Assembly: GCA_019285755.1 (NCBI GenBank)
Contig: CP079103.1
Location: 5,365,001 to 5,429,000 of the forward strand
Direction: 5' to 3'
Origin: Chitinophaga sp. E66
Lineage (GTDB): Bacteria > Bacteroidota > Bacteroidia > Chitinophagales > Chitinophagaceae
Length of the DNA stretch: 64,000 nt
The position numbers and the translations under genes are program-made. This document shows positions 15,109-50,831 of this stretch, in pieces. Every line of letters starts with the position of its first letter. Position 1 is the first letter of the stretch. The notes under the pieces are model-generated. The model ran no database searches, was not told the DNA's origin, and worked only from the letters and a program-made list of their open reading frames with translations.

Positions 15109-15218
15109 GATCCTCCGTCAATCCTCCGTCCATCCTCCGTCCAACTACCGTCAAACCCTTGCCACACCTGGACACCGACGGAGGATGGACGGAGGATGGA
15201 CGGAGGATCGTTGACAGA
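15109..15218. repeat. 11-bp phased repeat array A (inverted arms)
   Basis: Ten consecutive 11-base units in unbroken register. Left: GATCCTCCGTC, AATCCTCCGTC, CATCCTCCGTC and the weaker CAACTACCGTC. Core: AAACCCTTGCC and ACACCTGGACA. Right: CCGACGGAGGA, TGGACGGAGGA twice, then the unrelated TCGTTGACAGA. The right unit is the reverse complement of the left, so the whole can fold as a long hairpin with the core in the loop. It lies between the convergent aldo/keto reductase and SUI1-like genes, outside both and beyond the reductase terminator. The period is not a multiple of three, and no coding frame runs through it. Confidence 0.9.
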
Positions 15219-15315
15219 TCCCTAAAACCGTTACATGTGAATATTGTAGCAGTGCAGGGAACTATCCTCCAATAGATGCATCTTCAAATCTATTGATAAT
15301 CAACATCGTTATTCT

Positions 15316-15414
15316 CATCCTTCGGTGATCCTTCAGCGAACCTTCGTCAAACCCTTGCCATTGCTGAACACCGCCGAAGGATGGCCGAAGGTTCGCCGAA
15401 GGATCGCTGGGCAA
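15316..15414. repeat. 11-bp phased repeat array B (sister of array A)
   Basis: Nine 11-base units in register: CATCCTTCGGT, GATCCTTCAGC, GAACCTTCGTC; core AAACCCTTGCC, ATTGCTGAACA; CCGCCGAAGGA, TGGCCGAAGGT, TCGCCGAAGGA, then TCGCTGGGCAA. The core matches array A, including the first core unit exactly and ACACCG at the same distance. GATCCTTCAGCGAACCTTCG can pair with the right arm with a single mismatch over 20 bp. The core is exactly 196 bases from that of array A. Confidence 0.9.
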
Positions 15415-15453
15415 AGACTGAGGGTTAAACGTTTCCCTTTGATAGTATTTTAA

Positions 15454-15488
15454 CAAAAGAGGCCGCCTTCCGGGGAAGACAGCCTCTT
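15454..15488 (-). terminator. Terminator of the SUI1-like gene
   Basis: Imperfect hairpin with arms AAAGAGGC and GCCTCTTT plus inner CTTCC/GGAAG pairing, 22 bases past the stop at 15510. On the minus strand it ends in CTCTTTTGTTAAAA. Confidence 0.55.
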
Positions 15489-15509
15489 TATCTGAAATTA
15501 CATTTTGGC

Positions 15510-15840
15510 CTATTTCACGTTATACCCCAGCCTTTCAGCCATTGGAGCACCTTATCGCGGTAATCGCCCTGTATGAGGATGAGCCGTCTTTCACGGAGCC
15601 GCCGGTACCGCACTTGGTTTTCAGTTCCTTACCCAGCTTTTCCAGGTCGGCATCCATACCCGTGAACCCTTCTACCACGGTCACCGTTTTACCGGCGCGC
15701 TGCTTCGTATCCAGCTTCACGCGAAGGCGTTGGTCTGCCGGCGGCAGCGTAGGCTCCTCCTGCCGGGGCTCCTCCTGGTATGAATAATTGGGATCAGTGG
15801 AGTAGACGATCCCGTTGGAGGCAGATTTCTTCTTGCTCAT
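15510..15840 (-). CDS. SUI1/eIF1 family translation factor (YciH-like)
   Basis: Small protein of the SUI1/eIF1 fold, the bacterial YciH group, thought to act on translation initiation fidelity. The N-terminal tail is polar and probably disordered (MSKKKSASNGIVYSTDPNYS). The SUI1 core follows: RVKLDTKQRAGKTVTVVEGF, LEKLGKELKTKCGTGGSVKD, LILIQGDYRDKVLQ and AERLGYNVK. Two indels near the end (about 15582 and 15545) hide the last segment. With them corrected the stop is TAG at 15510-15512 and the length is about 110 residues. It starts 11 bases past the lipid kinase stop, so the two are probably cotranscribed. Confidence 0.83.
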
Positions 15841-15851
15841 AACTTGCGTTT

Positions 15852-16737
15852 TTAGCGGCCATTGGGCACCACCATCTGGAGAGCGCCAGGCACAACGTTA
15901 AAATGAACGGTTTTTCCTTCGTCAGCGGCACCGCATCGCCATCCACCTGCAGGCAGGATAGGTCGGGGCTCGCGACGGTTATTTCTTTTCCTGTAAAATG
16001 CTGCATATACCTGCTCTCACCCACCGTACCGCGCAATGAGCTGACGCTCAGCGGCAGGAGATCCCAGAAGCGGAGGGGGCGTACCATGCACACGTCCAGC
16101 TCCCCGTCGAACAGGCTGGCCTGCGGAGCCAGTTTGAAGTCGTACCCGAACTGGTTGCCATTGGCTACCGTCATGAGGAACGCGGGCACTTCGGTTTCCT
16201 TTCCATCAGTACGGATCTTGTAGACGGCGGGTTTGTAGGAAGTAAAACCGCCTACCACCAGCCGGGCATAATTGATCAGGCCACGTTTCTTACTATGGCG
16301 GAAGCGGTCGGCAATCACTGCGTCGAAACCTACGCCGGCGTTGCTGAGGAAGAGGTGCTCATTCGCATAGCCCGCGTCCATGGGCTTTTTGAGGCCTTCG
16401 GCCACGATGGCTAGCGCCTTTTCCGCGTCCAGCGGGATGTTGAGCGCACGGGCCAGGCCATTGCCGCTGCCCAGGGCACGATGGCCAGGGCGGTACGGGC
16501 GCCCAGCAGCCCCTGCGCGATTTCATTGATGGAGCCGTCGCCTCCAACCGCCACCACGGTATCTACGCCGCGGTTCACGGCTTCGCGGGCCAGGTCTGTG
16601 CCATGGCCCAGGTATTGGAGATAAGTAGTTTCAACCTGGAAACGGTCTGCCGGGAGCTGGCGCGCAATAGCGGCGCCCAACGATTTCTCGCGGTCGGTAC
16701 CGGCTTTCCGGTTGATGATGATGAGAATTTTCCGCAA
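15852..16737 (-). CDS. Diacylglycerol kinase-family lipid kinase
   Basis: Cytoplasmic lipid kinase of the DAGK catalytic family (YegS/DgkB type), which phosphorylates diacylglycerol or a related lipid with ATP. Starts MRKILIIINRKAGTDREKSL. The glycine-rich nucleotide loop is VVAVGGDGSINEIAQGL, followed after a frameshift near 16480 by CGSGNGLARALNIPLDAEKA. The C-terminal beta-rich domain has FLSNAGVGFDAVIADRF and FDGELDVCMVRPL and the end CLQVDGDAVP. A second frameshift near 15900 hides the natural ending GALQMVVPNGR. About 295 residues when corrected. It lies between nadC and the SUI1-like gene on the same strand. The exact lipid is not predictable. Confidence 0.87.
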
Positions 16738-16753
16738 TGGTAAAAGGATTGAC

Positions 16754-17607
16754 TTAGGGATGTATAACGGCTTTGAGGCTCAGGTCGAGGCTTACGGCAT
16801 GGTGGATGATAGCGCCGACGGACACGAAGTCCACGCCCGTCTTCGCATAGGCTTCCACGTTTTCGATCGTGATGCCGCCGGATGCTTCGGTTTCATATTT
16901 TCTGCCGATCAGTTCCAGTGCGGGAACGATCTGTTCCGGGGTGAAGTTGTCCAGCATGATGCGATGCACCTGTCCTACCGCCAGCACTTCCTTCACGTCT
17001 TCGATATTGCGCGTTTCCACTTCGATCTGCAGGTCGAGGTTATTCGCCTTGAGATAGGCCACTACGCGCTCAACGGCGGGGTGATGCCGCCGGAGAAGTC
17101 GATGTGGTTATCTTTCAGCATGATCATATCGTACAGTCCGATCCGGTGGTTGACGCCGCCCCCGATGCGCACGGCTTCTTTCTCGAGCATGCGGAAGTTG
17201 GGGGTGGTTTTGCGGGTGTCGAGCACGCGGGTATGATAGCCTTTGAGGCGGTCGGTGTATTTGCGGGTGAGGGTGGCGATGCCGCTCATGCGCTGTATAC
17301 AGTTGAGCACGAGCCGCTCTGCGCTGAGGAGGGTACGTACGCGGGCGGAGACCTCAAACGCCACTTCTCCGGACTGCATGGTATCGCCATCTTTCTTGAA
17401 GGGAATGAAACGGGTGGTTTCATCGAGCTGGCGGAAAACTGCTTCCGCTACTTCCATTCCGGCGAGCACGCCGTCTTCCTTTATTTTGAGCCTTGCGGTG
17501 CCCGTGGCTCCGGCGGGGATGGAGGCGAGGGTAGAATGGTCGCCCGAGCCGATATCTTCCGCTAAAGCGGCTGTAATGAATTGTTCCAATGCTTCTTTCT
17601 GTAACAT
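16754..17607 (-). CDS. nadC: Nicotinate-nucleotide diphosphorylase (carboxylating), quinolinate phosphoribosyltransferase
   Basis: Converts quinolinate and PRPP to nicotinate mononucleotide, the last step of de novo NAD precursor synthesis. Start ATG 17607 (MLQKEALEQFITAALAEDIG); an upstream in-frame ATG would extend into the terminator region. Conserved blocks include ERLVLNCIQRMSGIATLT, the phosphate-binding DTRKTTPNFRMLEKEAVRIG, GGVNHRIGLYDMIMLKDNHI, IEVETRNIEDV, MLDNFTP and EASGGITIENV. One frameshift near 17065 joins FSGGITP to AVERVVAYLKANN. About 285 residues. nadB, for an earlier step, is at 51-52.6 kb. nadA was not seen. Confidence 0.94.
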
Positions 17608-17641
17608 AACGCAATCGGGAATGAGAGGGCAAGTTACAAAC

Positions 17642-17674
17642 AAAAAGGCCATCCGCCTATTGCGGATGGCCTTT
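17642..17674 (-). terminator. Terminator between the DUF4783 gene and nadC
   Basis: AAAAGGCCATCCGC and GCGGATGGCCTTT form a strong stem with a 5-base loop. The minus strand continues with a T run. It separates the DUF4783 transcript from nadC. Confidence 0.8.
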
Positions 17675-17700
17675 CAAGTACGGTAGTCTTATAGCTGCTG

Positions 17701-18094
17701 TTATTTATTTTCGAAACGCAGTTCGTTCAGGACGAAGGCGCTGCCTTTTTCTGGAGAAAAAATGAGGTGCGGAAGTTACCGCCGCTGGTGGTGAGGTTGC
17801 CCACACCGAACTGGGAGCCACCTTCGGGGCCGCCTTTATGGAGGAGCTCAAAGGTTTTGACGGTGTTTTTCCCGAAGAAGTCTTTAAGGATGATTTCCGC
17901 CTGTGCCTTGCTATAGGAACTGGATTTGCCAGCCATATTGATCTCTACGGTGTTGTCCAGGAGTTTGCTCAGGTTACCGGAGTCTCCTTTCTTGAGAGCG
18001 CCGACCACATCGTCGAAAGGACCGGCAAACAGCGTGAAAGCTGTCAGCATCCCTCCGGCCAGGAGCACCCCAACACCATGATTAACTTTTTCAT
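17701..18094 (-). CDS. Secreted DUF4783 domain protein
   Basis: Small exported protein of unknown function with the DUF4783 domain found across Bacteroidota. Start ATG 18094 gives MKKLIMVLG and, after a frameshift in a G run near 18073, the hydrophobic signal VLLAGGMLTAFTLFAG. The mature part shows FDDVVGALKKGDSGNLSKLL, TVEINMAGKSSSYSKAQAEI and LKDFFGKNTVKTFELLHKG. A second indel near 17745 hides the natural ending GSAFVLNELRFENK. It lies upstream of nadC on the same strand but is separated from it by a strong terminator. Confidence 0.8.
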
Positions 18095-18337
18095 TTATCC
18101 GTTGTTTTGATCGCAATACATTTATCAACCGTAGAAAGCGCCAAAACTATGCCAATTTGTTGGCTTTCAATAAATATACCATTATTGTGCTATGCTTGGC
18201 CGCCTTTTACATAATATTAATTTAATATACAAAAATCCCCTGAGATCTAGGCCCTCTTTAAAAATTTTACACCCCGCAAAAGATAGTATTATTAATTTCA
18301 CGGGCCGATTCATTCACAACGTACAACGGATTAAAGT

Positions 18338-19855
18338 ATGGAAAATAAAAGAGCGATCCTGATCATCATGGATGGCTGGGGCCAGGGCAGTGCCCGCCGC
18401 AGACGCCATCGCGCATGCAAACACTCCTTTCGTGGACAGCCTCTATGAGCAATATCCCCACAGCACCCTCGTCACCTGCGGAGAAGACGTAGGCCTCCCC
18501 GAAGGCCAGATGGGCAACTCCGAAGTGGGCCACCTCAATATCGGCGCCGGAAGGATCGTGTACCAGGAGCTCCAGCGCATCAACGTCGCCGTAAGAAGCG
18601 GCGAACTTGCCGGCAGCAAGGTGTTGCAAGCTTCCATGGACTACGCCCTCAACAACAATAAAGCCCTCCACCTCATCGGCCTGGTGAGCGACGGCGGCGT
18701 TCACTCGCATATAACCCACCTCAAAGCCCTCACCTCCATCGCTAAGGAACGCGGGCTCTCCAATGTGTTCGTTCACGCCTTCACCGATGGGCGCGACACC
18801 GATCCCAAAGGCGGCCTCGGCTACCTGACGGACCTCCAGGAGCACCTCACCGCCACCACAGGCCGCATCGCCTCGGTGACCGGCCGTTACTACGCCATGG
18901 ACCGCGACAAGCGCTGGGAACGCGTAAAACTCGCATACGACGCCCTCGTGAACGGCACCGGCACCCCTACGCAAGACGTGCTCACCGCCATTAAAGCATC
19001 CTATGCCGAAGGCGTGACCGACGAGTTCATCAAGCCCATCATCGTAACCGACGCCCAGCAACTGCCCATCGGCAACATCCAGCCGGGCGACGCGGTGATC
19101 TGCTTCAACTTCCGGACAGACCGCTGCCGGGAGATCACCGAAGTGCTCACCCAACAGGCATTCCCCGATTTCGGCATGCAGCCTCTGGCATTGCATTATA
19201 CCACCATGACCGAATATGACAAAGCATTTAAAGGCGTACATGTCATCTTCGAGAACGATAACCTGGCGATGACGCTCGGCGAAGTGCTGGAAAAGAACGG
19301 CAAAACGCAGATCCGTATCGCTGAAACAGAGAAGTACCCCACGTGAGCTTCTTTTTCTCCGGCGGCCGCGAAACGCCTTTCGAGGGAGAAAAGCGCCTGC
19401 TGGTGCCTTCCCTAAAGTAGCCACCTACGACCTGAAGCCCGAAATGAGCGCCCCGAACTGGCGGACGCCATCCTGCCCGAACTGGAGCAGCGGACGGCCG
19501 ACTTCGTAGTGCTGAACTTCGCCAATGCCGATATGGTTGGCCACACCGGCGTATGGCCCGCCGCCATCAAAGCCGTGGAAACCGTAGACGCCTGCGTGGC
19601 CAAAGTGGTATCCACCGCACTGCTGAACGATTACACCATTTTCCTCACGGCCGACCACGGCAACGCCGACTACATGATCAATGAAGACGGCACGCCCAAT
19701 ACGGCCCATACGCTCAACCTCGTCCCCTTTTCATCATCAGCCAGGACTTCAAAGGCACGGTGAAAAGCGGCAAGCTGGGCGACCTCGCCCCCACCATCCT
19801 TCACTTCATGGGCCTGCCAATCCCGAAGGAAATGACGGGCAACGTACTCGTTTGA
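18338..19855 (+). CDS. gpmI: 2,3-bisphosphoglycerate-independent phosphoglycerate mutase
   Basis: Glycolytic enzyme interconverting 3- and 2-phosphoglycerate using two Mn ions and a phosphoserine intermediate. It starts [15 protein letters not shown], where the Asp binds metal. The catalytic serine is in [20 protein letters not shown]. Further conserved blocks are [58 protein letters not shown] and [12 protein letters not shown]. Frameshifts near 18388, 19345, 19415, 19450 and 19735 break it. Corrected length about 505 residues, normal for GpmI. A strong terminator follows. Confidence 0.95.
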
Positions 19856-19875
19856 TCCTCACACCGGATATAAAG

Positions 19876-19906
19876 GGAAGGGGCTGCTCCGGCAGCCCTT
19901 TTTATT
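19876..19906 (+). terminator. Terminator of gpmI
   Basis: GGGCTGC and GCAGCCC form a stem with a TCCG loop, followed by TTTTTATTTT, 20 bases past the gpmI stop. Confidence 0.85.
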
Positions 19907-19952
19907 TTCCCCGGGTGTAACTTTTCCGGGATACCTGCCGTTTAACACCAGA

Positions 19953-20067
19953 TAAAGCCGGAAGGCTTTGCCAAATCAGATAATACTCATCTCACCATAA
20001 GAATTTTAGTGCTCTCGACAGATTTGCTCATGCATCAGATGCGCCGTATTCACGGTGCATTTTTTTA
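19953..20067 (+). other. Possible leader RNA or small RNA upstream of the lipoprotein gene
   Basis: AAAGCC-GGAA-GGCTTT (19953-19968) is followed by about 70 unstructured bases, then a terminator-like hairpin: ATGC(G)CCGT and ACGG(T)GCAT with seven T after it (20039-20067). It lies wholly between the gpmI terminator and the next ATG at 20104. It could be an attenuator or a separate small RNA. No known riboswitch is recognised. Confidence 0.35.
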
Positions 20068-20103
20068 TAGGCCGATTGCCGCGCCACCATTAAATTTGCG
20101 TGT

Positions 20104-20691
20104 ATGAGAATCGTATTGCGGATCGCAGGGCTATTTACGTTATGGATGACCGGTTGCCAGCTGCCCGAACGGCAGGGGCCGCCCGTTGTCAGTGAAAAGG
20201 ATCATAGTTACAGGGCGCTGGGGAACTACTGCTGGGACGAAATCGCGCGCATGCGCAAATCCCCTTCCAGATCACCAAAACCATCCGCCTCAACGGAGCA
20301 ACAGCCACTTCACCCGTAAAGACAGCGCGGGACTGGAAGCCCTCTTCCGCCCCTTATGGACGCAGATATCAGCCGCCCCTCTCTGGCAGACGCCTATACG
20401 GTAGATACCATTCCCAATCACTTCACGCGGGACACTACGTTCATCCACCGCAGCCGGGGCAAACAAACCTGGCCGGCGCAACTCATCGTGGAAATCGACA
20501 GCAGCAGCCGGATCAGGACCGTCCAGGTTTCCTCCCATACCGTCAACCCCGTATACGAATACCGGCAGGAGATCGTCTATGAGCGCGACCGTATGCTGAC
20601 CATCAGCTCCCTGCAAAAGATCATTTTCATGAAAGCGGAAAACATGGAGACCACCGTTTATTTCCGACCCTTAACAGCACAGCAGCCATGA
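20104..20691 (+). CDS. Hypothetical lipoprotein cotranscribed with uvrC
   Basis: Unrecognised protein. The N-terminus MRIVLRIAGLFTLWMTGCQL looks like a lipoprotein signal with the modified Cys near residue 18. The mature part reads SEKDHSYRALGNYCWDEIAR, then after frame changes (about 20262 and 20355) MDADISRPSLADAYTVDTIP, QLIVEIDSSSRIRTVQVSSH and YEYRQEIVYERDRMLTISSL. It is a beta-rich sequence of about 195 residues. Its TGA overlaps the uvrC ATG (ATGA at 20688-20691), so translation is probably coupled. The overlap does not imply a DNA-repair role. No function is proposed. Confidence 0.7.
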
Positions 20692-22464
20692 CATCAGCGG
20701 AGTTTTCCCAAATATCACATACCATCCCCACCCAGGCCGGCATCTACAAATACTTCGACGCCGGCGGGGAACTGCTGTACATCGGAAAAGCCAAAAGCCT
20801 CCGCAAACGCGTTTCTTCCTACTTCGCCAAACATCACGACAACTATAAAACCCGCAAGCTGGTGGATAACATCCACCACATCGAGTTCACCATCGTCGAC
20901 AATGAAAAGGACGCATTCCTCCTGGAAAACGCGCTTATCAAACAATTCAGGCCCAAGTACAACATCGACCTGAAAGACGATAAGACCTACCCTTTCATCA
21001 TCATCAAGCACGAACCCTTTTCCGCGTCTTCCTCACCCGCCGGGTGATCAAAGACGGCTCGGAATACCTCGGGCCTTTCACCTCGGTAGGCCGCGTCCGC
21101 GAACTGCTAGAAGTGATCCGCTATAACATCCCCTGCGTACCTGCAATCTCAACCTTTCTGAACAAAACATCCGGAAAGGCAAGTTCAAAGTGTGCCTGGA
21201 ATACCATCTCGGCAACTGCAAAGGCCCTTGCGAAGGGTTGCAGACGCTGGAAGACTACCGCGAAGGGCTACAGCAGGTAAAAGAGATCCTGCGGGGCAAC
21301 CTCTCGCCCGTACTGAACATGTTCAAGGCGAAAATGCAGGAGCATGCGATGAACATGGAATTCGAAAAAGCGGAAATTGAAAAGAAGAAGATCGCCAGTC
21401 TGCAGGATTACCAGGCACGCTCTACCATCGTCAGCAGCCGGGTAGGGAATGTGGACGTGTTCACGATACTGTCGGAAGGCAATTTCGCGTATGTCAATTA
21501 CCTGCGCGTACTGAACGGCACCATCGCCGATACCAAAACCGTAACGCTGGAAAAGAAGCTGGAAGAAACGGACGAAGAAGTCATGGAATATGCGATCGCT
21601 TACCTGCGGGAAGCATTCCAGAGCCTGGCGCGGGAGATCGTGCTGCCGTTCCATGTAGATTTCCCGGAAGAGAATGTGGAGGTCATCGTGCCCAAAGGCG
21701 GCGACAAAAAGAAACTGCTCGACCTTTCCGCCAAGAACGTAAATTACTTCCACGAAGAATTGCGCAAGAAAAAGATCCTGATGCTGGAAGGGAAGAGCGA
21801 TATGGAGCGGAAAGAGGTGCTGTACAAACTGCAGGCCGACCTGGAACTGCAGGAGCTGCCCGTACATATCGAGTGCTTCGATAACTCCAACTTCCAGGGA
21901 AGCTATCCCGTATCCGCATGCGTGGTGTTCAAGGACGGCGTTGCATCTAAGAAGGATTACCGTCATTTCAATATCAAAACCGTTGAAGGCATCAACGACT
22001 TCGCGTCTATGACCGAAGTTGTATACCGCCGCTACAAACGCCTGCTCGACGAAGAGCAACCCCTGCCCCAGCTCGTCATCATCGATGGCGGTAAAGGACA
22101 ACTGGGCGCCGCCATGGAGAGCATCCGCAAGCTGGATCTCATCGGCAGCATGACGGTGGTGGGCCTGGCGAAGAATGAAGAAGAAATCTTCTTCCCCGGC
22201 GATAAGGATTCCATCAAGCTCCCGTACGACAGCGAGAGCCTGAAACTGATCCGCCGCGTGCGCGACGAGGTGCACCGTTTCGGTATTACCTTCCACCGGC
22301 AAAAGCGCAGCAAAGGCACTTTCAAGAATGAGCTGGAAGGTATCAAGGGCATTGGCGAGAGCACGGCCACGCAGTTGTTGCAAAACCATCGTTCCGTGAA
22401 TAAAGTGAAGCAGCTGAGTAAGGAGGATCTGGTGAAGGAAGTGGGGCAGAAAAAGCGGCGCTGA
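20688..22464 (+). CDS. uvrC: Excinuclease ABC subunit UvrC
   Basis: Nuclease that cuts on both sides of a DNA lesion after UvrA/UvrB recognition. The N-terminal GIY-YIG domain has AGIYKYFDAGGELLYIGKAK and LLENALIKQFRPKYNI. The cysteine-containing block CLEYHLGNCKGPCEG is followed by the UvrB-binding motif region (MNMEFEKAEIEKKKIASLQ). The RNase H-like domain has HIECFDNSNFQGSYPV and QLVIIDGGKGQLGAA. The C-terminal helix-hairpin-helix pair is ELEGIKGIGESTATQLLQNH. Frameshifts near 21030 and in the C run at 21130-21133 (NIPLRTCNLNLSEQN restored by one C). About 593 residues, normal. A degraded copy of its 3' end lies 93 bases downstream. Confidence 0.95.
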
Positions 22465-22556
22465 TCTGGGAGCATTTCCATGGAACAGAGGGTACAACCA
22501 CTGATCCGTTAGCGCAATAAGAAACGCGCCGGGAATGTAAGCGTATAGCCGAAATT

Positions 22557-22612
22557 ACAGCCGCGCAGTTATTGCAGAACCATCATTCATTAAATTAAGT
22601 GAAGCAATTGAG
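22557..22612 (+). pseudogene. Degenerate remnant of a uvrC 3' end
   Basis: 56 bases align without gaps to uvrC 22363-22418, the region encoding TATQLLQNHRSVNKVKQLS, with 45 identities by eye. The frame is interrupted (TTAAATTAAG), so it cannot be translated. It is a relic of a second uvrC end, from tandem duplication or replacement by a related gene. Flanking sequence from 22613 to 22719 shows nothing recognisable. Confidence 0.7.
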
Positions 22613-22719
22613 GGCAGTCTTTCCTGACTCTCTCCGGTTATTGCAGTTGATCCGGCTCCTCAATAAAAAAATGGATGAGCAACTGATGACTAATTACACA
22701 ATGATTTAAATACTCCCCA

Positions 22720-22895
22720 GATAACTCTTAGATAACTGCTTGATAAAAGCTTGATAACTTCTTCACAATTCCTTAAAAGGGCCTTGTTCACCCCATGCTG
22801 AGTGCTTGCTGAGTGCTTGAAAAGTGCTTGTTTCCCCTTTGCTGAGTGCTTGAAGAGTGCTTAATGAGTGCTTGAAGAGTGCTTGTTCCCGTATT
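22720..22895. repeat. 11-bp phased repeat array C
   Basis: Sixteen 11-base units in one register. Left block: GATAACTCTTA, GATAACTGCTT, GATAAAAGCTT, GATAACTTCTT. Core: CACAATTCCTT, AAAAGGGCCTT, GTTCACCCCAT. Right block: GCTGAGTGCTT twice, GAAAAGTGCTT, an interrupting GTTTCCCCTTT, GCTGAGTGCTT, GAAGAGTGCTT, AATGAGTGCTT, GAAGAGTGCTT, then GTTCCCGTATT. CTT closes almost every unit. Unlike arrays A and B, the two blocks are not reverse complements. It lies in the 740-base gap between the convergent uvrC and DinB genes. Stop codons occur in all forward frames. Confidence 0.9.
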
Positions 22896-22942
22896 TAGTG
22901 GCACAATGGGATTCTTCTAAGGAAGCTGGTTATATAAAAGTG

Positions 22943-22970
22943 GAAGCCCGGTTTGAGAACCAGGCTTTTT
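22943..22970 (+). terminator. Terminator in the uvrC-DinB gap
   Basis: AAGCC(C)GGTT and AACC(A)GGCTT form a stem with one mismatch, followed by TTT on the plus strand. It is 480 bases past uvrC and just beyond repeat array C, so any transcript from uvrC would carry the array. Confidence 0.6.
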
Positions 22971-23205
22971 CCCCAAGTTAACCATTAAAAGACACAGATT
23001 TATTTTGATGACCGGCGTTTGCCGGGGAATCTTCGTTGTTGTTTCATCACATTAACTGTGATATCATGGATGCTTTTCCACATTACTAAAGTAACGCGTA
23101 AGCAGTTGTTTCGTTGTTAAGAATTTGTTATCAGCACGAAATTGCGCAACGCTGTAACCGGCAACGGCATTGAGTTTCAAGCGTTTTAAACAACTGTTGA
23201 ATTTG

Positions 23206-23831
23206 TTAGCGGGCAGGTATGGACAGGAACTGCAAAGTGACCGCAGCAGCATCGGCGCCACGTGCTTTTTCCACACTGCGGATAGCCTGCAGCATATGCC
23301 TTTGCGCGTGCGCGATAAGGAAACGGAAGGTGTCTCCTGCTTTCAGTGCAATCAGCTTTGAGAGGGTCGTTGGAATGCGGATGCCGCCGATATCTATCTG
23401 CTTGGCGGCCTGCAGTAGGGAGAGCATCCACTCCTGCTGCGCCTGGAACTCTTCGAGCGTCTGCACGGCATCGAGCTGGGGAGCGGGACGGTGGTTCCTG
23501 GGGATTGCATCTTCATTTTAAGGCCGCCGTCGGGTTTCGGCGCCATGGATTGGGTAAAGTAGTTGCCCAGCCAACCGCTTTTGAAGTGATCGGGCACTGT
23601 ACGGTTCTGAGCAAGGAATTTGCGGAAGGCTTCATCGATCGCGGGGAGGTAATAACGGCCGTAGCCATTAAGATGCTCCAGGCACTGGATGGCGGACCAG
23701 CTGCCGGGAGCGGGTTGCTGCAATAATATCGCATGGGGTTGGGTAGCCAGGTAGCGGTCTGCCGCCGCGAGGAGGTTATTTACGTCTTGCTGAAGATCGC
23801 CGAGCAGGGTGGCGGAATGAAAGGTAGGCAT
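23206..23831 (-). CDS. DinB family protein (putative metal-dependent hydrolase fold)
   Basis: Four-helix DinB/YfiT-like protein. Starts MPTFHSATLLGDLQQDVNNL (ATG 23831; ATG 23873 is an alternative). The conserved WSAIQCLEHLNGYGRYYLPA contains the first metal-ligand His. A later block is IALKAGDTFRFLIAHAQRHM with further His residues. One frameshift near 23480 joins SPGTTVP to APQLDAVQTLEEFQAQQEWM. About 205 residues. It follows the Crp/Fnr regulator on the same strand and may be its target. DinB proteins often act in thiol or stress metabolism, but no substrate can be named. Confidence 0.78.
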
Positions 23832-23902
23832 GTGCAGAGATTTGTTGATCCAGTGCAAAGGTACGCCGGCCATACAGACGAAATCTTTGTCTGCGCCAAG
23901 AT

Positions 23903-24473: not shown

Positions 24474-24485
24474 GGTTGCAAGATA

Positions 24486-42169: not shown

Positions 42170-42195
42170 AATAATTCGTGGTTTGAAGGTTCAGT

Positions 42196-44560
42196 TTATT
42201 CTGCGCGCAGGGATTTGACAGGGTTCATCCGCGCCGTGCGAACGGATTGGTAGCTGACGGTCAGCATCGCCATTACGAGCGACAATACCGCCGTTCCCAG
42301 GAAAATCCACCAGCTGATCTCGATGTGGGCGGAGAACTTCTCCAGCCACCCTTGCATGAAGTACGCCGCCAGCGGCAGTGCGATGGCCACCGCCAGCAAC
42401 ACCAGCCGCAGGAAGTCTTTGCTGAGCAGCACGAGGATCTGCCCTACCGTGGCGCCCAGCACCTTCCGGATCCCGATCTCTTTGGTACGCTGCTGCGCCG
42501 TGAAGGCCGCCAGCCCGAAGAGTCCAAGACAGGCAATGAGGATCGCCAGCACCGTAAATACCGTTGCCAGCCTGCCGATCACGGCTTCGCTGCGGTACAT
42601 CCTTTCGAAATACACGTCCATGAACTTCGCTTCGAAGGGATATTGCGGATTGAATTGTTTGAATACGGCACCGAGACTGGCCAGCGCTTCGTCGACCTGC
42701 CCGGGTTTAATGCGGACGAGCACCTTCCCGCCATCCTCTTCAATAGGAAGGATAACCATCGGTGCGGATTTTCTGGCGAGGTGTGCGCTGGCGAAGTCTT
42801 TAGCTACACCGATGACGGGCGCCTGCCGGTCGTTTATGGTGATGATCCGGCCTATCCAGGGTTTCTCCAGGTGCATGAGCCGGGCCGCCGTTTCATTGAT
42901 CACCACAGCGTTCGAATCTGTAGCAAATGCATCCGAGAAGGTCCGGCCTTCGAGCATCTCGAGTTGCATGGTTTCGCCAAATCCCTTACCTACCTCCAGC
43001 TTATCAAACAACACCTTTTCCGTTGCTCCCTTCCCCGGCCAGGAAACGCCCTGGAAGCTGTTGCCGACATCAATGGGCAATTGGTTGGATATAGATGATG
43101 CCACTATGCCCGGCTTACCTTCCAGCGCACGGCGGAAGGCTTCCAGGTTATTGTTCAGCGCACCTTCTTTATTGAAGAAAACCACCTGGTCCTTGTTCAG
43201 CCCCAGGTTCCGGTTTTTGATATATTGAATTTGCAAATAGACGAGTATCGCAGACACGATGAGCACCGTGGAAATGATGAACTGGAATACCACGAGGCCT
43301 TTCCGCAGCCATATCGCCGAAGATTTCAACCGCAGCATTCCGCCTTTAAGCGTAGCGATGGGGTTAAGGGAAGACAGGTAAAAAGCGGGGTAACTGCCGG
43401 CCGCAAAGCCGGTGAAGATAGCCAGGCAAAGTATCCCCAGCACGTTATACCAGGTAAACATCGGAACTGCGATCTCGGCATTCACCATCTTTCAAAAGCC
43501 GGCATCAGTAGCCAGACCAATAGCACTGAAAGCACCGAAGAAATTAGTACAAGCGCAAATGATTCTCCCAGGAATTGCGACACCAGTGAAAACCGTCCGG
43601 CGCCTATAGCCTTACGGACGCCCACTTCCTTGCTACGGTGTACCGCCCTGGCGGTAGACAGGTTCATGAAATTAATGCAGGCGATCAGCAACACAAAAGC
43701 CGCAACGATGATAAACAACCTTACATATTCCATTCGTCCCGGCAATACTTTCCCGTCCCTGAACTCGCCTTGCAGGTAAACATCGGAATAGGGATAAAGG
43801 AATAATTCAGTCGTAGAGCCCTGAGAATTACGTTTAACTATGTCTTTTGCGATGGCATTTACTTTCGACAGATCGGCATTCTTGTCCAGTAAAGCATAAG
43901 TTCGAGGCGCATTGGCATCCCAGCTATTGAGCCGGGGATGCTCTGTTTTTAGTGCCTGCATCGGCAGCAGGAACGCAAATCTAAGGGAACTGTTAAGCGG
44001 TGCGGCCTTTACCACCCCGGTTACCGTATAATCATTAGTGTGTTCCAAACGGATCGTTTTCCCTAATGCTTTTTCATCCCCGAAAAGCGCTTCGGCCGTT
44101 TTATCTGTGAGCACGATGTTGCCCGGCTGCATCAGCGCTCCTGCGGCGCTGCCTTCCAAAAAAGGGAATGAAAATACGTCGAAGAAGTCGTTGTCCGTGT
44201 AATGCCCCTGGAACTTGAGGTTCTTCTCTCCCACAGACAACAGCTTATCAGCGTTCCAGCTTACAGACGCCACTTTGCGGATACCCGGCACCTCCGTACG
44301 GAGCTTGTCCGCCAGGGGGCCTGGTGTGGCCGTGGTGGTGAGCATTTCGTTGTTGGAGTAATACTGGTGCTCGTACACCTGGTGGATGCGGGGAGCCTTT
44401 CGTGATAGCGATTAAAACTATATTCATTCGCAACCCACAACAGGATGAACATGCAGGCCGTCATGCCCACTGTAAGCCCGGTGACGTTGATGACGCCGAA
44501 AACTTTGTTGTTCCAAAGGTTCCGCCAGGCGATCTTAAACTGATTTCTGAGCATGTTCAT
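42196..44560 (-). CDS. FtsX-like ABC permease, copy 2
   Basis: Second double-domain MacB/FtsX-type permease, similar in plan to its neighbour but clearly divergent in sequence. Start MNMLRNQFKIAWRNLWNNKV. The periplasmic part has FFDVFSFPFLEGSAAGALMQ and NIVLTDKTAEALFGDEKALG. The FtsX cores read INFMNLSTARAVHRSKEV-GVRKAIGAG and QQRTKEIGIRKVLGATVGQI, and the C-terminus is SVRTARMNPVKSLRAE. Frameshifts near 44395 and 43485. About 788 residues. The two permeases probably work with the two ATPases encoded on either side. Confidence 0.93.
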
Positions 44561-44583
44561 GACGAGTAAAGGGGTTGAGATGG

Positions 44584-44808
44584 TTAATTGTTCGTTGGCA
44601 AATCTGTGCCGGATTTACGGCGGCGGTATTGGTTCAACAGGCAAAGCCCGCCGAACAATACAATTAAAATGGGCCATAACATGGATGGCATCAGCAACAT
44701 TGCCCGGAACCCCTCGTCGGAGCCGCTACCGCAGGAGAAGGCCGTTGCGGCCTGTCCCAGCGGCGGAAGCTGAAGGATATTTTCCGGGCAATGTGGTATC
44801 ATGGTCAA
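44584..44808 (-). CDS. Possible small membrane protein inside the efflux cluster
   Basis: 74-residue frame with one clear hydrophobic segment (MLLMPSMLWPILIVLFGGLC) followed by a positively charged tail LNQYRRRKSGTDLPTNN. It lies between the ATPase and permease genes, where the 293-base gap is otherwise unexplained. The N-terminal half before the helix has low credibility, so a start at the internal ATG (MLLMPS) is possible. No family is recognised. Confidence 0.35.
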   Translation of the reverse strand: MTMIPHCPENILQLPPLGQAATAFSCGSGSDEGFRAMLLMPSMLWPILIVLFGGLCLLNQYRRRKSGTDLPTNN

Positions 44809-44853
44809 TCCGTTTTATATCGTTATGCCTTGTGCGGCAATGCGGTTTATGTA

Positions 44854-45542
44854 TTACACGTGAAATTGTTCCTTGATATTCTCGGTCACTACTTTACCGT
44901 CGAACAGGTTGACGATACGGTGAGCGAAACCCGCGTCGTACGGCGAGTGCGTTACCATGATAAGCGTGGTGCCGGCATCGTTGAGCTCCTGGAGGAGTTT
45001 CATCACCTCTTCGCCGTTGGTGGAATCCAGGTTACCCGTGGGCTCATCCGCAAGGATCAGCTTGGGCTTGGCTACTACCGCGCGGGCAATGGCCACGCGC
45101 TGTTGCTGACCGCCGGAAAGCTGTTGCGGAAAGTGATTGCGGCGGTGCATGATGTTCATACGCTCCAGCACTTCTTCCACCCTCGCCTTTCTCTCGCTGG
45201 CCGGAACTTTAAGGTACAGCAGCGGCAATTCCACGTTCTCGAAAACAGTCAGCTCGTCGATCAGGTTAAAGCTTTGGAATACGAACCCGATGGCCCCCTT
45301 CCGAAGCTGCGCGCGCTGGCGCTCGCTCATCCGCGCTACTTCCTGCCCCAGAAATGATATTCCCCGTGAGAAGGATTGTCGAGCAGCCCGATGATGTTGA
45401 GCAGCGTGGATTTACCGCAGCCCGACGGGCCCATGATCGCTACGAACTCTCCGTCCTGGATTTCCATATTGATGCCGTTAAGCGCCGTCGTTTCCACTTC
45501 TTCGGTGGTGAATAGTTTTTGCAGGTTGACTGTTCTGATCAT
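44854..45542 (-). CDS. ABC transporter ATPase (MacB/LolD type), copy 2
   Basis: Starts [20 protein letters not shown]. Walker [15 protein letters not shown]-loop [20 protein letters not shown], signature [20 protein letters not shown], Walker [13 protein letters not shown] and H-loop [20 protein letters not shown]. One frameshift near 45345. About 230 residues. It starts 39 bases after the adaptor stop and lies two genes from permease copy 2, so these probably form one MacAB-like unit. Confidence 0.94.
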
Positions 45543-45581
45543 TGTTGCGGATTGAAGATTGAGATAATGGTTTTGGGTGGA

Positions 45582-46824
45582 TTAAAATTCCAGGACTTCC
45601 TTATTTCCGAAGTTTTCATACGAGGAGGTGATGACCTGGTCGCCGGGACGAAGCCCGTCCAGCACCTCGAAGTATACCGGTTTTTGCGGCCAAGGGAGAT
45701 CTTGCGTTTGGCGGCACGCTTGCCGCCGCTTTCCACAACATACACCCAATTGCCGCCGGTGTCTGAGAAGAACCCGCCCGCAGGCAAAAGTAAGGCTTCG
45801 GAAGATTTTCCAAGCTCAAGGCGGATAGGAGAGGATTGCCCGCGTCGGATGCCATCCGGTGCGGCGTTCACGAAGTTCATGTCCACTTCGAAACGCCCGT
45901 TTTTAACTTCGGGATATACTTTGGAGATCACCATTTCATTGGCTTTCCCGTTGAAATCAAAATTAGCTTTCAGTCCAGCGAAAATGCGGGAGATGTAATG
46001 TTCGTCCACTTCGGCGCGCATCTTGAATCCGTCCATATCATCTATCTGACCGATATTCTGCCCCGCCAGGATGCTGGTGCCCACTTCCACATTGATGGAC
46101 GACAGCTGCCCGTCTACAGGGGCGCGCACCACCAGGTTGGCCAGGTTATCCTTCATGAGGGAAAGGTTGCGCTGCGTCCGGGAGATGGTCCTTCCAGCTG
46201 CTCGATCTGCGTACGGGCGTTCTCCAGCTGGTAGTCCTGCGACTTCACCTCGATCTCCCGCTGGCGGGCCAGGCGTTCGTATTCACGTTTGGTACGCAGG
46301 TATTCCTGCTCGGCTACCACTTTATCTTTAAAGAGCTTATGGTTCCTTTCGAAGAGGTCTTTGGCCTGGTCTACCTGGTAATCGAGATCGCTGAGTGTCT
46401 TTTCCAGGGCAAAGCGGTCTTGTTTGAGGCGGAGCCGCGTATTCTGCAGCTCGTTGATGAGCCGGTACATTTCCGTTTCCCGGTTCACGAAGTCCATCAT
46501 CAGCCGCTGGTTCTCCAAACGGAGAATGGAATCGCCCGCTTTTACCATGCTGCCGCCTTCGATGAATTTCCGGGCAACATACCCGCCTTCGATGGCATCC
46601 AGGCGGATGGTCTTGAGGGGATGCACCACGGCCGTAACGGAGATGTACTCGTCGAACGTGCCTTTGGTGACCTGGGAAATGGTGATTTTTTCTTTCTCCA
46701 CGTTGAGCTTGCTGCGCTTATCCGCGAAAATAAAGCTCCAGAGCAGGAGCACCACCAGCCCGCCGCCTCCGTAAAGGAAGAGGCGCTGTTTGGTCCAATA
46801 TTTCTTTTTGATCTGTCTGTCCAT
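45582..46824 (-). CDS. Efflux periplasmic adaptor (HlyD-like), first gene of the cluster
   Basis: Membrane fusion protein. Start ATG 46824 (MDRQIKKKYWTKQRLFLYGG) with anchor helix GGGGLVVLLLWSFIFA. Lipoyl part: LKTIRLDAIEGGYVARKFIE and SMVKAGDSILRLENQ. A long coiled coil covers about residues 110-205. The second lipoyl half and barrel read ANLVVRAPVDGQLSSINVEV, GKSSEALLLPAGGFFSDTGG and YVVESGGKRAAKRKISLG. Frameshifts near 46190 and 45690; the true end is KEVLEF. About 412 residues. It is preceded by the sigma-54 promoter and enhancer candidates and divergent from the NtrC-type regulator. Confidence 0.9.
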
Positions 46825-46849
46825 GACGTTAATTGCTGGACAGGGAAAG

Positions 46850-46864
46850 TCAATCCATGTGCCA
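46850..46864 (-). promoter_or_regulatory. Candidate sigma-54 (-24/-12) promoter of the efflux cluster
   Basis: On the minus strand TGGCAC (46859-46864), five bases, then TTGA (46850-46853). The -24 element and the spacing match the consensus TGGCACGnnnnTTGC exactly; the -12 element differs in its last base. Transcription would start about 14 bases before the ATG at 46824. A sigma-54 activator is encoded divergently at 47138. Confidence 0.5.
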
Positions 46865-46937
46865 AGCCATGCCAAACCCCAAACCCGCCATGGCGGCGGA
46901 CGCAACTACTTCTCCCCTTCGGAGCGCTGTTCCAAAG

Positions 46938-46964
46938 CGGACAGGAAGTGTCCGTTTCCGGACA
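46938..46964. promoter_or_regulatory. Candidate enhancer site for the NtrC-type regulator
   Basis: CGGACA-N5-TGTCCG (46938-46954) is a perfect 17-bp dyad with the 6-5-6 layout of NtrC-type sites. A third half-site CGGACA (46959-46964) follows four bases later. It lies about 75 bases upstream of the -24 element, a usual distance for an enhancer. The rest of the 313-base divergent gap (46825-47137) shows nothing else. Confidence 0.5.
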
Positions 46965-47137
46965 GGCGGGCGCCCCCGCCCCGCTTTCAAAATATCCCCA
47001 GCCGATCCCGAATGTTTCCTTATTATTGCCACCGCAGGGCAGTTCCGGCGAAATTGAAGCCCCTCCGCCACCAGGCGCGCCGCTTCCCGGAATACGTTTT
47101 GCTATCTTCTACCGAAAACGCATTAATCCTATAATTC

Positions 47138-48483
47138 ATGAGCATCCAGCAAGGTAAAATTCTGATCGTGGACGACGACGTGGACGTACTCCGCGCCGCC
47201 AGGCTTCTCCTGAAAAGACACTTCGCACAGGTCGACTTCGAAAAGAATCCGCAAAAGATCCCCTACCTCGTTACCAATTTCGAGTACGACGTCATCCTGC
47301 TGGACATGAACTTCACCCGCGACCTTTCCAGCGGAAAAGAAGGCTTCGAATGGCTGGACAAGATACTCGATATCAACCCCAAAGCCACCGTAGTCCTCTT
47401 CACCGCATATGGCGACGTAGAAATGGCCGTGCGCGCCATCAAAGCCGGCGCGGCCGACTTCGTCCTCAAACCCTGGGAAAACGATAAACTGCTGGCTACC
47501 ATGCAGGCAGCCGTGGCCACCAACCAGGCTAAACAGGAAAAGAAAGCCGGTGGCGCCACCCTGCATACCGGCAATGTGCTCATCGGCGACAGCCCCGCCA
47601 TGCAGGAAGTCCTCGAAACCGTGAGCCGCGTGGCCGGAACAGATGCCAACATCCTCATCCTCGGCGAAAACGGAACGGGTAAAGACCTGCTGGCCCGGCA
47701 CATCCACGCCCTCAGCATGCGGAAAGAAAAGACCTTCGTCCCCGTAGACCTCGGCGCCCTCAGCGAAACCCTCTTCGAAAGCGAACTGTTCGGGCATGTC
47801 AAAGGCGCATTTACCGATGCCAGAGACGACCGCGCCGGACGATTCGAAGAAGCCGCCGGAGGTACCATTTTCCTCGATGAGATCGGCAACGTGTCTATCC
47901 CCTTCCAGGCAAAACTGCTGACCGTGCTGCAAAACCGCCAGGTGACGCGCGTTGGCTCCAATAAACAACTCCCCATCGATGTACGGTTAATTACCGCCAC
48001 CAATAAGAACATCTCGCAGCTCGCAGCCTCCGGGCAATTCCGGCAGGATCTGCTGTATCGCATCAATACAATTGAGGTTCATCTTCCGCCCCTGCGCGAC
48101 AGGAAAGAGGACATCGTTCCCTGGCTGAATACTTTCTCGGCATCTACCGTAAAAAGTATAACCGCCCGGTTGCGTTCTTACATGAAACGCTCATCACCCA
48201 GCTGGAAAACTACGATTGGCCGGGCAACATCCGCGAACTGCAACATGCGGTCGAAAGGGCGGTGATCCTTTGCCAGGGCAAAACGCTTATGCCCAAAGAC
48301 GTTTTCGTGAAATCCAACGCCTCGGCAGAAAAGCTGGATACCGGCTTCAACCTGGAGGATATGGAAAGGAATATGATAGCCCAGGCGCTGAAACAATGCA
48401 ACGGCAATATCACCGATGCAGCGCGGGAGCTGGGCCTGAGCCGTGCCGCACTGTACCGCCGCATGGAAAAATACAACCTCTGA
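47138..48483 (+). CDS. Sigma-54-dependent response regulator (NtrC family)
   Basis: Two-component activator with receiver, AAA+ and Fis-type DNA-binding domains. Start MSIQQGKILIVDDDVDVLRA. The phospho-acceptor Asp lies in YDVILLDMNF (about residue 54). The AAA domain has Walker A GENGTGKDLLARHI, the sigma-54 contact loop written GAFTDA in place of GAFTGA, GGTIFLDEIGN and YRINTIEVHLPPLRDR. The C-terminal helix-turn-helix is NITDAARELGLSRAALYRRM. One frameshift near 48130. About 448 residues. It precedes its kinase by one base and diverges from the efflux cluster, its likely target. Confidence 0.94.
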
Positions 48484-48484
48484 C

Positions 48485-49813
48485 ATGAATCGCTTCAGCG
48501 TCAACATACTGCTTCGCCTCATCCTGTTCATCGCCACCGTGGCGGCAGGCTTCGTGCTATGGCAGCTGGGTTACCCCTGCTCATATGGCTCGTGGCGCCG
48601 TTTCTCGTGGCCCAGGTGGTATCGTTATACCATTACCTCAACCGCGTAAACCGGAAGCTTACCCTTTCCTGGAAGCCATCAGGTACGAGGACTTCTCCAT
48701 CCGCTTCAGTGCGGATAACAAACTGGGCAAGAGCTTCGCGGCGCTGAACCACCAGTTCAACGAAGTACTGGAAGCTTTCCGGCAAACCCGCGCGGAACGG
48801 GAAGCGAACCTCAAATACATCGATACCATTATTCAGCATATCAGCATCGGCATCTTTTCGTTCGACGCCGACGGGAAGATAGAACTGATCAACCCCGCGG
48901 CTTTCCGGCTGCTGGGTATTTACCGCCTGCGGTATATCGACGAGTTGAAGAACGTGCACCCCGACCTGGCGCAGTTGCTCCTGCAACTCCCCGCCGGACA
49001 AAAAACCCTCTACGCCACGCAAAACGGCCAGCAGCTTTCAATCCATGCGGCGAGCGTACGCCTGCAGGGCCGGCTTGTGAAACTGATTTCGTTACAGAAC
49101 ATCCATGCGGAGCTGCAACAAAAAGAGCTGGAAGCCTGGCAAAACCTCACCAAGATCCTCCGCCACGAGATCATGAATTCCGTGACGCCCATTGTAAGCC
49201 TCATCGGCACCATGCGCGACATCGTGCAATACGACCTCGCAGTAACCGATGAGCAGAACGACGCTGTGGAAGACCTCCGTGAAGCGCTGGAAACCATCGA
49301 AAGCCGCAGCAAAGGAATCATGGCTTTCGTGAACGCATACCGCGATTACACGACCCTGCCCAAACCGCAGTTCACCACCCTCAATCTCAAACAACTCCTT
49401 AACTCCGTCAGCAACCTCCTGCTGGCAGATATGAAGACCGCTGGCATACGCTACCGCTGGCATGTGTCGCCCGATAACATTGAAATCCATGCAGACGAGA
49501 CCCAGTTGCAGATGGTGCTCATCAACCTCATCAAAAACGCCATGGACGCGCTGGAACATACCGATGAACCGGTGATTAACGTCAAAGGATCTTTCAACGG
49601 GCAACAGGTGATCATAGAAATTACGGACAACGGACCGGGCATTGATCCGGATGCGCAGGAGAAGATCTTCATTCCGTTCTTCACGACCAAGAAGAAGGGT
49701 TCGGGATCGGGCTGAGCCTCAGCCAGCAGATCATACAGATGCATGGCGGGCAACTGAAACTGAGCAGCATCCCGGAAAAAGGTACCACTTTTTATGTATT
49801 GCTCACAAGTTAA
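48485..49813 (+). CDS. Sensor histidine kinase, partner of the NtrC-type regulator
   Basis: Membrane histidine kinase. Start MNRFSVNILLRLILFIATVA gives two closely spaced transmembrane helices (residues 7-29 and about 33-52) with almost no periplasmic loop. A HAMP-like region and PAS-like domain follow (QHISIGIFSFDADGKIELIN). The H-box is LTKILRHEIMNSVTPIVSLI, the N-box LINLIKNAMDALEH, then DNGPGIDPDAQEKIFIPFFT and GLSLSQQIIQMHGG. Frameshifts near 48568, 48668 and 49700. About 442 residues. The lack of an outer sensing domain suggests detection within the membrane or cytoplasm. Confidence 0.92.
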
Positions 49814-49845
49814 AAAGGGTGTAAGTTGAGGGACAATTCCACCTC

Positions 49846-50507
49846 ATGAAACCTGCCTATTGGGTCGTTATTTATTTCCTCGCGCTGCTGGCCGATATCG
49901 GGATGATCGTTTTCAACGTTCCGGATGCCCGCTTTATCACCAAGCCGCTCCTGATGATTATCCTGGGGTGTATGGCTGGTCGCTGGCGGGAAAGCTGCAA
50001 TTTTCCTCCCGCAACTTCATTTTCGCGGCTATTATTTTTCCTGGTCGGGGATGTGTTCCTCCTGTTCCCGCAATACTTTCTGCCGGGTCTGGTGAGCTTT
50101 CTCATAGCACATTTGATGTACATCGGTTTCTTCGCCGGTTCCAGGCCGCGGCCTAAAGCCGGGGTCGTGGAAATACTGGCGATGCTTATGGCCCTGGGGT
50201 ATGCGGCCATCGTGCTGTCTGTCTTATATCCGAAAGCGGGGAAATGAAGATCCCGGTAATTGTATACACGGGCGTCATCACATCTATGCTCATGCTCGCT
50301 ATACGGGCTTTCGGATTCGGGGCGCCGTGGTATGGGAGGCGTTGTATTCTGGGAGCGTTCTTTTTCGTAATGTCGGATACGATACTGGCATTTGAATTGT
50401 TCTATGCCGATTTCCCATATAGCGGAGTGCTCGTTATGCTGACTTACGGGATCGCGCAGTGGCTGATCGTATCGGGAAGTTTATACTACCTGCGCAACCG
50501 GATCTGA
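49846..50507 (+). CDS. YhhN family membrane protein (lysoplasmalogenase-like)
   Basis: Multi-pass membrane protein of the YhhN/TMEM86 family, whose animal members hydrolyse lysoplasmalogens. Start MKPAYWVVIYFLALLADIGM. Corrected sequence: PLLMIILGVYGWSLAGKLQF, LVGDVFLLFPQYFLPGLVSF, then MKIPVIVYTGVITSMLMLAI, FVMSDTILAFELFYADFPYS and LTYGIAQWLIVSGSLYYLRN. The paired acidic motifs GDxFLLFP and SDTILAFE are the family signature. Frameshifts near 49972, 50038 and 50235. About 220 residues, eight helices. Bacterial substrates are unknown. Confidence 0.85.
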
Positions 50508-50721
50508 CCCCATTGGCCGGAAAACATTTTATTCCTGCAGCAACTTTTTGTGTATTTCGGCTGAAATTACTTTCGTATCTTCGATTTGCAGCAATCCACC
50601 CGGATTAGCAGCTATCCGGAATGGCCGTAAATAATTCTTTATCAGCACAATAGACATCCCTCACGCTAAGGAAAGGCATCCGGTTTGCCTGTAATATGTT
50701 TACCATTTTCTATACATTTGC

Positions 50722-50831
50722 TGCAGATCAAGTCCACATCAAGTCCACATCATCTCCACCTCAGGTCCACTGTTTCTGTATAGATACTATATACATGCAG
50801 TATAGATACAGTATGGATACAGTATAGATAT
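50722..50831. repeat. 11-bp phased repeat array D
   Basis: Ten 11-base units in register: GCAGATCAAGT, CCACATCAAGT, CCACATCATCT, CCACCTCAGGT; then CCACTGTTTCT; then GTATAGATACT, ATATACATGCA, GTATAGATACA, GTATGGATACA, GTATAGATATA. The left block and right block have different repeat sequences but hold one phase. It lies in the 461-base gap between YhhN and nadB, ending 137 bases before the nadB ATG. Other parts of that gap (50508-50721 and 50832-50968) show nothing recognisable. Confidence 0.9.

Follow-up and report, generated by a model that had tools for sequence, protein, structure and literature searches.

The stretch analysed here (the window) is 64,000 nucleotides of Chitinophaga sp. E66, G000:C1:5365001-5429000 of a 6.29-Mb chromosome (G000 denotes this genome throughout), and our subject is a set of four arrays in it whose units repeat every 11 bp. 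A first-pass annotation, made from the letters alone, had described these arrays as left units, a core and right units, and both Tandem Repeats Finder and a scan for self-similarity by lag recovered them where it had placed them and with the same plan. They are listed below; F1 is a family of array elements, and Fam1 and Fam2 are two protein families whose genes accompany such arrays elsewhere.

15110..15208, plus strand: array 1, of the F1 family, with three left units (15110-15142), a 33-bp core and three right units (15176-15208) reverse-complementary to the left units; supported by the period rows, the lag scan, arm covariation in 22 copies and a fold z of -10.5.
15317..15407, plus strand: array 2, a second F1 element in the same intergenic gap, with a similar core and with arms that differ from those of array 1 but complement each other; supported by the period rows and the lag scan.
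22719..22785, plus strand: left arm of array 3, GATAACTGCTT-type units and the start of the core, downstream of uvrC; supported by the period rows and the lag scan; the site is empty in C. rhizosphaerae and C. cymbidii.
22796..22885, plus strand: right arm of array 3, where two runs hold seven GAGTGCTTGAA-type units; arrays 5' of Fam2 genes (L026, L340) have a similar unit.
50722..50771, plus strand: left arm of array 4, four copies of ATCAAGTCCAC; this unit recurs in several species 3' of Fam1 genes and, in genomes G044 and G063, at the orthologous site.
50776..50833, plus strand: right arm of array 4, GTATAGATACA-type units, whose place at the orthologous site is taken in G044 and G063 by a different 11-bp array.

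Tandem Repeats Finder returned period-11 rows at 15110-15143, 15177-15208, 15372-15407, 22719-22763, 22799-22885, 50727-50770 and 50778-50830 of the window. Over lags 4-30 the lag scan returned segments at two lags only, eight at lag 11 and two at lag 22, and five Markov-1 resamples of the window yielded zero segments at lags 9-13. The units run head to tail at 11 bp without unique spacers, in agreement with the earlier statement that a CRISPR spacer pattern is absent, and we rejected a CRISPR array as a candidate. The arrays had also been called non-coding, in part because stops occur. No predicted open reading frame (ORF) overlaps any of the four by more than 40 bases, but the argument from stops fails for the array at 15110-15208, which is stop-free in five of six frames and is non-coding by position and period instead. 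Arrays 1 and 2 are palindromic, their arms being mutually reverse complementary; the arrays at 22719 and 50704 are not (DNA fold z 0.2 to 1.2). No Fam1, Fam2 or helix-turn-helix (HTH) gene lies beside the window arrays, and arrays 3 and 4 are built from units of gene-linked families.

The proposal that the arrays form one class with a common 11-bp step, to be followed by a genome-wide scan and count, was borne out by a 1.2-Mb sample, taken as 60 stretches of 20 kb along the G000 chromosome. Lags 5-40 gave 41 segments at lag 11, 28 at lag 22, 19 at lag 33 and at most eight at any other lag, and the lag-11 segments merged into 32 loci dispersed along the chromosome, which extrapolates to about 170 per genome. 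When the four window arrays are added, 29 of 36 loci are free of predicted ORF overlap above 40 bases, the other seven overlapping ORFs of 71-121 aa. Restriction to this assembly, which would have spoken against a class, is not what we found: other Chitinophaga species carry arrays too, with lag-11 segments in 80-kb samples of G007 (one), G008, G044 and G065 (two each) and G058 and G063 (three each). Among 80 uvrC neighbourhoods, the 19 loci classed as Chitinophaga held two segments in 404 kb and the other 61 held none in 1.08 Mb. Random 1.2-kb windows contained an array in 0 to 4.5% of draws, depending on the genome.

The class had further been said to be defined by layout and not by sequence, and here the earlier account needs revision. 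The arrays are not sequence-free, their units forming families that recur within G000 and are shared with other species. Array loci of the sample could be grouped by BLAST; F1 units were found in G003 and G006 among 40 genomes searched, and the ATCAAGTCCAC arm is present in seven of nine genomes searched. The same unit accompanies the same Fam2 subfamily across species (AAGGGCAGACG or a close variant in G000, G044 and G063), as does a ACAGTACTG unit common to C. rhizosphaerae and G041 in one Fam2 subfamily. By eye, one family (L016, L021, L055) preserves the order of even its odd units across separate copies, and some modules form chains around some 300 bp of gene-free DNA in which terminator-like and promoter-like sequence can be made out. 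This inter-module stretch is conserved (L103-L117; for example, L105 1680-1960) and has weaker 11-bp repeats of its own, a terminator-like hairpin with a T run, and promoter-like sequence directed toward the next array. Five module loci had no Rfam match above the gathering score, only sub-threshold ones with E values up to 1.

The link between arrays and genes first appeared in two G000 copies, 97% identical over 1,199 bp, that each comprise an open frame and an array. The encoded protein, Fam1, has 265 aa and no match over cut-off in Pfam or NCBIfam; we found 263 homologues, and of the 120 listed, those with names are Chitinophaga hypothetical proteins. Matches per genome, of which one gene may give several, number 43 in G000, 25 in G063, 20 in G044, 13 in C. 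cymbidii, eight each in G008 and G058, six in G003, three in G065, two in G007, one each in C. rhizosphaerae and G014, and none in G001 and G041. A lag-11 array lies 3' of 14 of 29 Fam1 genes, in every case 145-223 bp beyond the stop codon, and 5' of none (loci L303 and L312 are a single gene and were counted once). Genes with an array make up four of four in G000, four of four in G063, three of three in G044 and three of 18 elsewhere. A ATCAAGTCCAC-like motif, recognized by eye about 170-270 bp beyond the Fam1 stop, is present also in the G007, G008 and C. cymbidii copies that lack a full array. Downstream of 25 Fam1 genes the lag statistic reached z 15.8 at lag 11, and upstream it gave z 7.1 at lag 32 and 5.2 at lag 33, about three turns; in the random-stretch control the top lags were all multiples of three. 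We also observed TTCGAA-type dyads at a pitch of 32-33 bp, about 100-250 bp before the Fam1 start codon (L286-L314); in the pairs L306/L313 and L286/L305 the first dyad marks where the duplicated unit ends on its 5' side. The Fam1 C terminus is a variable disordered tail followed, in most members, by a conserved R-E or K-E.

The first-pass annotation had suggested looking for linked proteins, and a search for further proteins near arrays added a second multi-copy family, Fam2, with the array on the other side: 3' of Fam1, 5' of Fam2. Fam2 proteins have about 250 aa and no Pfam match over cut-off, and kinship between the families is indicated by a Fam2 query that retrieves the Fam1 genes of G058. 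Among the 25 of 30 fetched Fam2 loci that were counted, 22 have the array 5' of the gene, as compared with the 0 to 4.5% of random 1.2-kb windows given above. The distance to the matched segment is 183-592 bp in 21 of them and 1,048 bp in the other, and the region upstream of 23 Fam2 genes gave z 15.3 at lag 11. In G000 stretches that were not selected by gene, the array stood on the family's own side for five of five Fam2 and five of seven Fam1 genes. Fam proteins are basic in their N-terminal part, with a mean net charge of 8.8 over the first 65 residues (36 proteins). In one Fam2 subfamily (L324, L329, L330, L334, L335, L339) the stop-to-stop frame runs to 423-460 aa, as against the usual end at about 250 aa.

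Some Fam2 cassettes contain, between the array and Fam2, a gene whose product is a basic HTH protein of about 67 aa. We located 16 HTH loci in seven of ten genomes, and on the listed coordinates each of the 16 has a Fam2 gene within 2.9 kb. The array starts 11-102 bp beyond the HTH stop codon in eight of the 16, two orthologous pairs among them, as compared with 0.6% of random points. In three cassettes (L026, L340 and L343, with L349, L354 and L356) the HTH gene lies about 2.8 kb from Fam2 and does not adjoin it. A survey of the phylum found Fam2 in 12 of 148 genomes and eight of 84 genera, and ten Fam2 loci from other genera had an HTH gene in nine, on the opposite strand in eight, and an 11-bp array in one (L367). 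Because the gene pair occurs in other genera and arrays are rare there, the pair is old and wide, and large arrays look to have been elaborated mainly within Chitinophaga. At E 1e-10 this large family counts 4,853 proteins among the 7,998 candidates scored, and the 120 members listed have no Pfam domain and are named only 'hypothetical' or 'uncharacterized'.

Fam1 copies are dispersed. Five within-genome Fam1 pairs are 98.6, 97.3, 93.0, 91.8 and 87.0% identical over 1,275, 1,199, 1,224, 1,214 and 1,086 bp, respectively. Their flanks do not match at the cut-off used, and in three of the pairs the match stops 7-69 bp beyond the array. The Fam genes are under purifying selection. Where gene and array are shared between species together with their flanks, the ratio of non-synonymous to synonymous substitution rates (dN/dS) is 0.076 (L316/L317) and 0.081 (L319/L320); two further pairs that match over most of their flanks gave 0.27 and 0.23, and dispersed pairs gave 0.09-0.21, leaving out one pair too similar to judge.

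Orthologous sites show how the arrays themselves change. At the site of array 4, G044 and G063 retain the left arm and carry an unrelated 11-base array as the right arm; between these two genomes the right arms have equal unit numbers and differ by substitutions. The fetched loci of C. rhizosphaerae, G006 and G065 have no lag-11 segment at this site, and at the site of arrays 1 and 2 C. rhizosphaerae has another, weaker 11-bp array (score 17). The L316/L317 alignment contains no gap within the array, and the sole unit-sized indel seen in three comparisons (G044/G063, L316/L317 and L319/L320) is a gap of 11 bases where the L319/L320 array has its edge. The exchange of an arm together with the equal unit number in G044 and G063 argues for a constraint on the period and against slippage, which the first-pass annotation had offered as a source of the arrays and which the gap-free L316/L317 array likewise does not support.

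We favour, at a probability of about 0.42, the reading that the arrays are cis-acting docking platforms for a protein that steps along DNA by one helical turn (11 bp), within dispersed Chitinophaga gene cassettes. Such cassettes encode the related proteins Fam1 or Fam2, of about 250 aa and with the basic N-terminal part, Fam2 cassettes adding the HTH gene of about 67 aa, usually divergent; the side of the array is fixed in gene-bearing copies, 3' of Fam1 and 5' of Fam2, in about half of the HTH loci just beyond the HTH stop, and the four window arrays are solo copies without cassette genes. Mechanistically, we propose nucleation at a specific arm, ATCAAGTCCAC for example, of a small DNA-binding protein (in Fam2 cassettes most likely the HTH protein) that may then load head to tail, once per turn and with weak sequence demand. 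Loading of this kind would conserve the period while leaving the second arm exchangeable, and there is precedent in BldC, Xis and RdfS, which, according to PMC11963761, put one subunit on each DNA turn and demand little of the sequence. A protein that binds one helix face once per turn would be the simplest common cause of a fixed 11-bp step in arrays both palindromic and not, and we infer binding on that ground; nucleation, filament growth and a purpose in the spread or control of the cassette would follow from the model. Place and charge make the HTH protein the best candidate reader in Fam2 cassettes, and the Fam proteins, themselves basic in the N-terminal part, could be the readers instead.

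A broader version, which we hold only tentatively and with more doubt than belief, is that helical pitch and anatomy, and not any one sequence, define a class of element in which an anchor arm nucleates a filament running along any DNA with one unit per turn. The class would be coupled to a very large uncharacterized Bacteroidota family (the HTH protein and a partner with an immunoglobulin-like domain) and, in some Chitinophaga genomes, expanded to well over a hundred solo platforms. The docking reading connects a strong feature of the genome with a gene family that has thousands of members and offers that family a testable role, reading 11-bp arrays; if the filament part is true, this would be a natural system that keeps a DNA period while sequence changes, useful for the study of indirect readout and filament nucleation.

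Several observations weigh against docking platforms within cassettes. Linkage is incomplete: most arrays have no nearby Fam gene, and at the threshold used 15 of 29 Fam1 genes, three of 25 Fam2 loci and eight of 16 HTH loci have no array. Fam1 copy number tracks array density only loosely, the density in most species being an estimate from 80-kb samples; G001, G014 and G041 had zero arrays in 80 kb each, and G094 had one in 280 kb. No Fam gene was near any of 13 F1 loci, so that F1 (arrays 1 and 2) is placed in the class by period alone, with no gene found for it. Outside the genus the HTH/Fam2 pair is without an array in nine of ten loci and thus does not need one, and the array of L367 stands at the start side of the HTH gene, not beyond its stop. 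Both Fam1 genomes G007 and G008 lack an HTH match, and several HTH and Fam2 loci are mutually orthologous, so not all counts are independent. The protein assignments are soft as well: profile comparison of Fam1 with one Fam2 protein gave E 2e-4 but only 45% probability; the HTH protein falls below cut-off against HTH_17 (E 0.0018, 18.9 of 27 bits) and against excisionase models (ICEBs1 Xis, E 0.01; 'excise', E 0.028), and a RuvA model scores as well on it (E 0.0022). Finally, the seven alignment gaps against C. rhizosphaerae, into which all 14 lag-11 segments of a 208-kb stretch fall, may in part reflect diverged intergenic DNA, since the comparison kept aligned blocks only if they were longer than 400 bases.

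The alternative that survives best, though we judge it unlikely, makes the arrays the ends of a non-autonomous mobile element resembling a miniature inverted-repeat transposable element (MITE) or a repetitive extragenic palindromic (REP) sequence, moved in trans by another enzyme, with the units as its iterated sites and the Fam genes as passengers or remains of full elements. Copies that match over about 1.1-1.3 kb with unmatched flanks and ends close past the array are what such an element would leave, as are segments confined to gaps against C. rhizosphaerae, the many gene-free arrays, and F1 elements that stand two or three in a row in seven of eight G000 loci (they are single in all five G003 and G006 loci). 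It would also predict target-site duplications, and among ten Fam1-type copies we found matches of 4-6 nt in four and none in six, within the range of random placement; the cassettes contain no transposase, only two of nine matches to the transposase family PF01797 in G000 have an array within 1.5 kb, and orthologous gene-plus-array loci are retained at low dN/dS, which fits a host function.

Less probable again is that the arrays are operators, bound by an element-encoded or host regulator of the neighbouring genes, with solo arrays as remnants or co-opted sites. The fixed position 5' of Fam2 and the promoter-side repeats at lags 32-33 upstream of Fam1 suit this idea, and 11-bp direct repeats serve as operators of CarH-type regulators. 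The Fam1 array, however, lies 3' of its gene, and array loci occur between genes of every orientation (eight convergent and three divergent of 36).

We give little probability to a structured RNA or cruciform, in which the functional or mobile form would be long hairpins made by the arms of 11-bp units. Array 1 folds strongly, and in 21 arm pairs from the 22 F1 copies 93.7% of cells are paired, with changes on both sides in ten of the 21; compensatory cells number 59, as compared with 20 (s.d. 4) in shuffles, a test inflated by kinship of the copies, and slid controls pair at 30-57%. The scan of 37 of 39 array loci (two over 400 bases were left out) nevertheless gave a fold z below -4 in only 12, arrays 3 and 4 not among them, so the period that the loci have in common is not explained by a hairpin. 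Neutral slippage or hairpin-primed copying into functionless 11-bp tandem repeats, already disfavoured and to us highly improbable, would account for the tandem form, the homogeneous arms and the single 11-base gap at an array edge, but not for a period of 11 and its multiples with no spread of periods, for the unit number kept between G044 and G063, or for units that are conserved across species and keep to one side of a gene.

Apart from the arrays, several conserved genes of the window appear split or truncated: uvrC at 21190-22464, a PAS/histidine kinase gene at 48585-49715 and a YegS-like kinase gene in two ORFs at 15794-16405 and 16411-16737. The uvrC segment has 94% protein identity to that of C. 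rhizosphaerae. The G000 assembly is listed at 65% completeness in one contig, and the split genes together with the low completeness look like indel errors in that assembly.

How the arrays relate to named systems was the remaining part of the first-pass proposal, which had allowed for a match to a known repeat family. Within the libraries tested none appeared: the window has no gathering-level Rfam match, and no named repeat, RNA or protein family in the libraries searched covers arrays and genes above cut-off; nor did our literature searches list a description of an 11-base array class. Iteron-type operators, those of CarH-type regulators and parC of R1, are alike in that a protein reads 11-bp direct repeats; they are one or a few sites of one sequence, whereas here many unit families have only the period in common. 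The minisatellite of the Porphyromonas gingivalis MITE reportedly has a period of about 23 nt, as compared with 11 here, where no target-site duplication was found for the gene-bearing copies. That MITE is, according to PMC4596501, a Bacteroidota intergenic element with tandem repeats (internal minisatellites). A MITE or DNA transposon was rejected for our ten Fam1-type copies by the target-site test.

REP sequences, bacterial interspersed mosaic elements (BIMEs) and REPINs, with their REP-associated tyrosine transposases (RAYTs), are similar in having many dispersed intergenic elements and a dedicated gene that carries the same repeats, and the F1 family is likewise palindromic and grouped. 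The genes linked to our arrays are Fam1 and Fam2 and not Y1 transposases, the units iterate at 11 bp, and many array families are not palindromic, such units being present in F1 and good folding in the 12 of 37 loci given above; with arrays near only two of nine PF01797 matches, REP/REPIN with RAYT was rejected by the gene test. These nine PF01797 (Y1 transposase) loci of G000 (L094-L102) include eight that are identical over 360 bases, which points to recent activity, by our assignment of the IS200/IS605 type.

The filament sites of BldC, Xis and RdfS are similar in another respect: small HTH_17-type proteins assemble on extended DNA, one per turn and with weak sequence demand, as PMC11963761 describes. 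Those sites are single promoters or att sites, whereas here an extrapolated 170 or so loci per genome carry regular units, and the cassettes include no integrase; the cassette HTH protein has no match above the curated cut-offs for HTH_17 or an excisionase-type winged helix-turn-helix (wHTH). In form, with solo repeats and a dedicated gene, the arrays resemble the REP/RAYT relation but fail the RAYT gene test; in action, if the docking model is true, they would work like wHTH filament sites.

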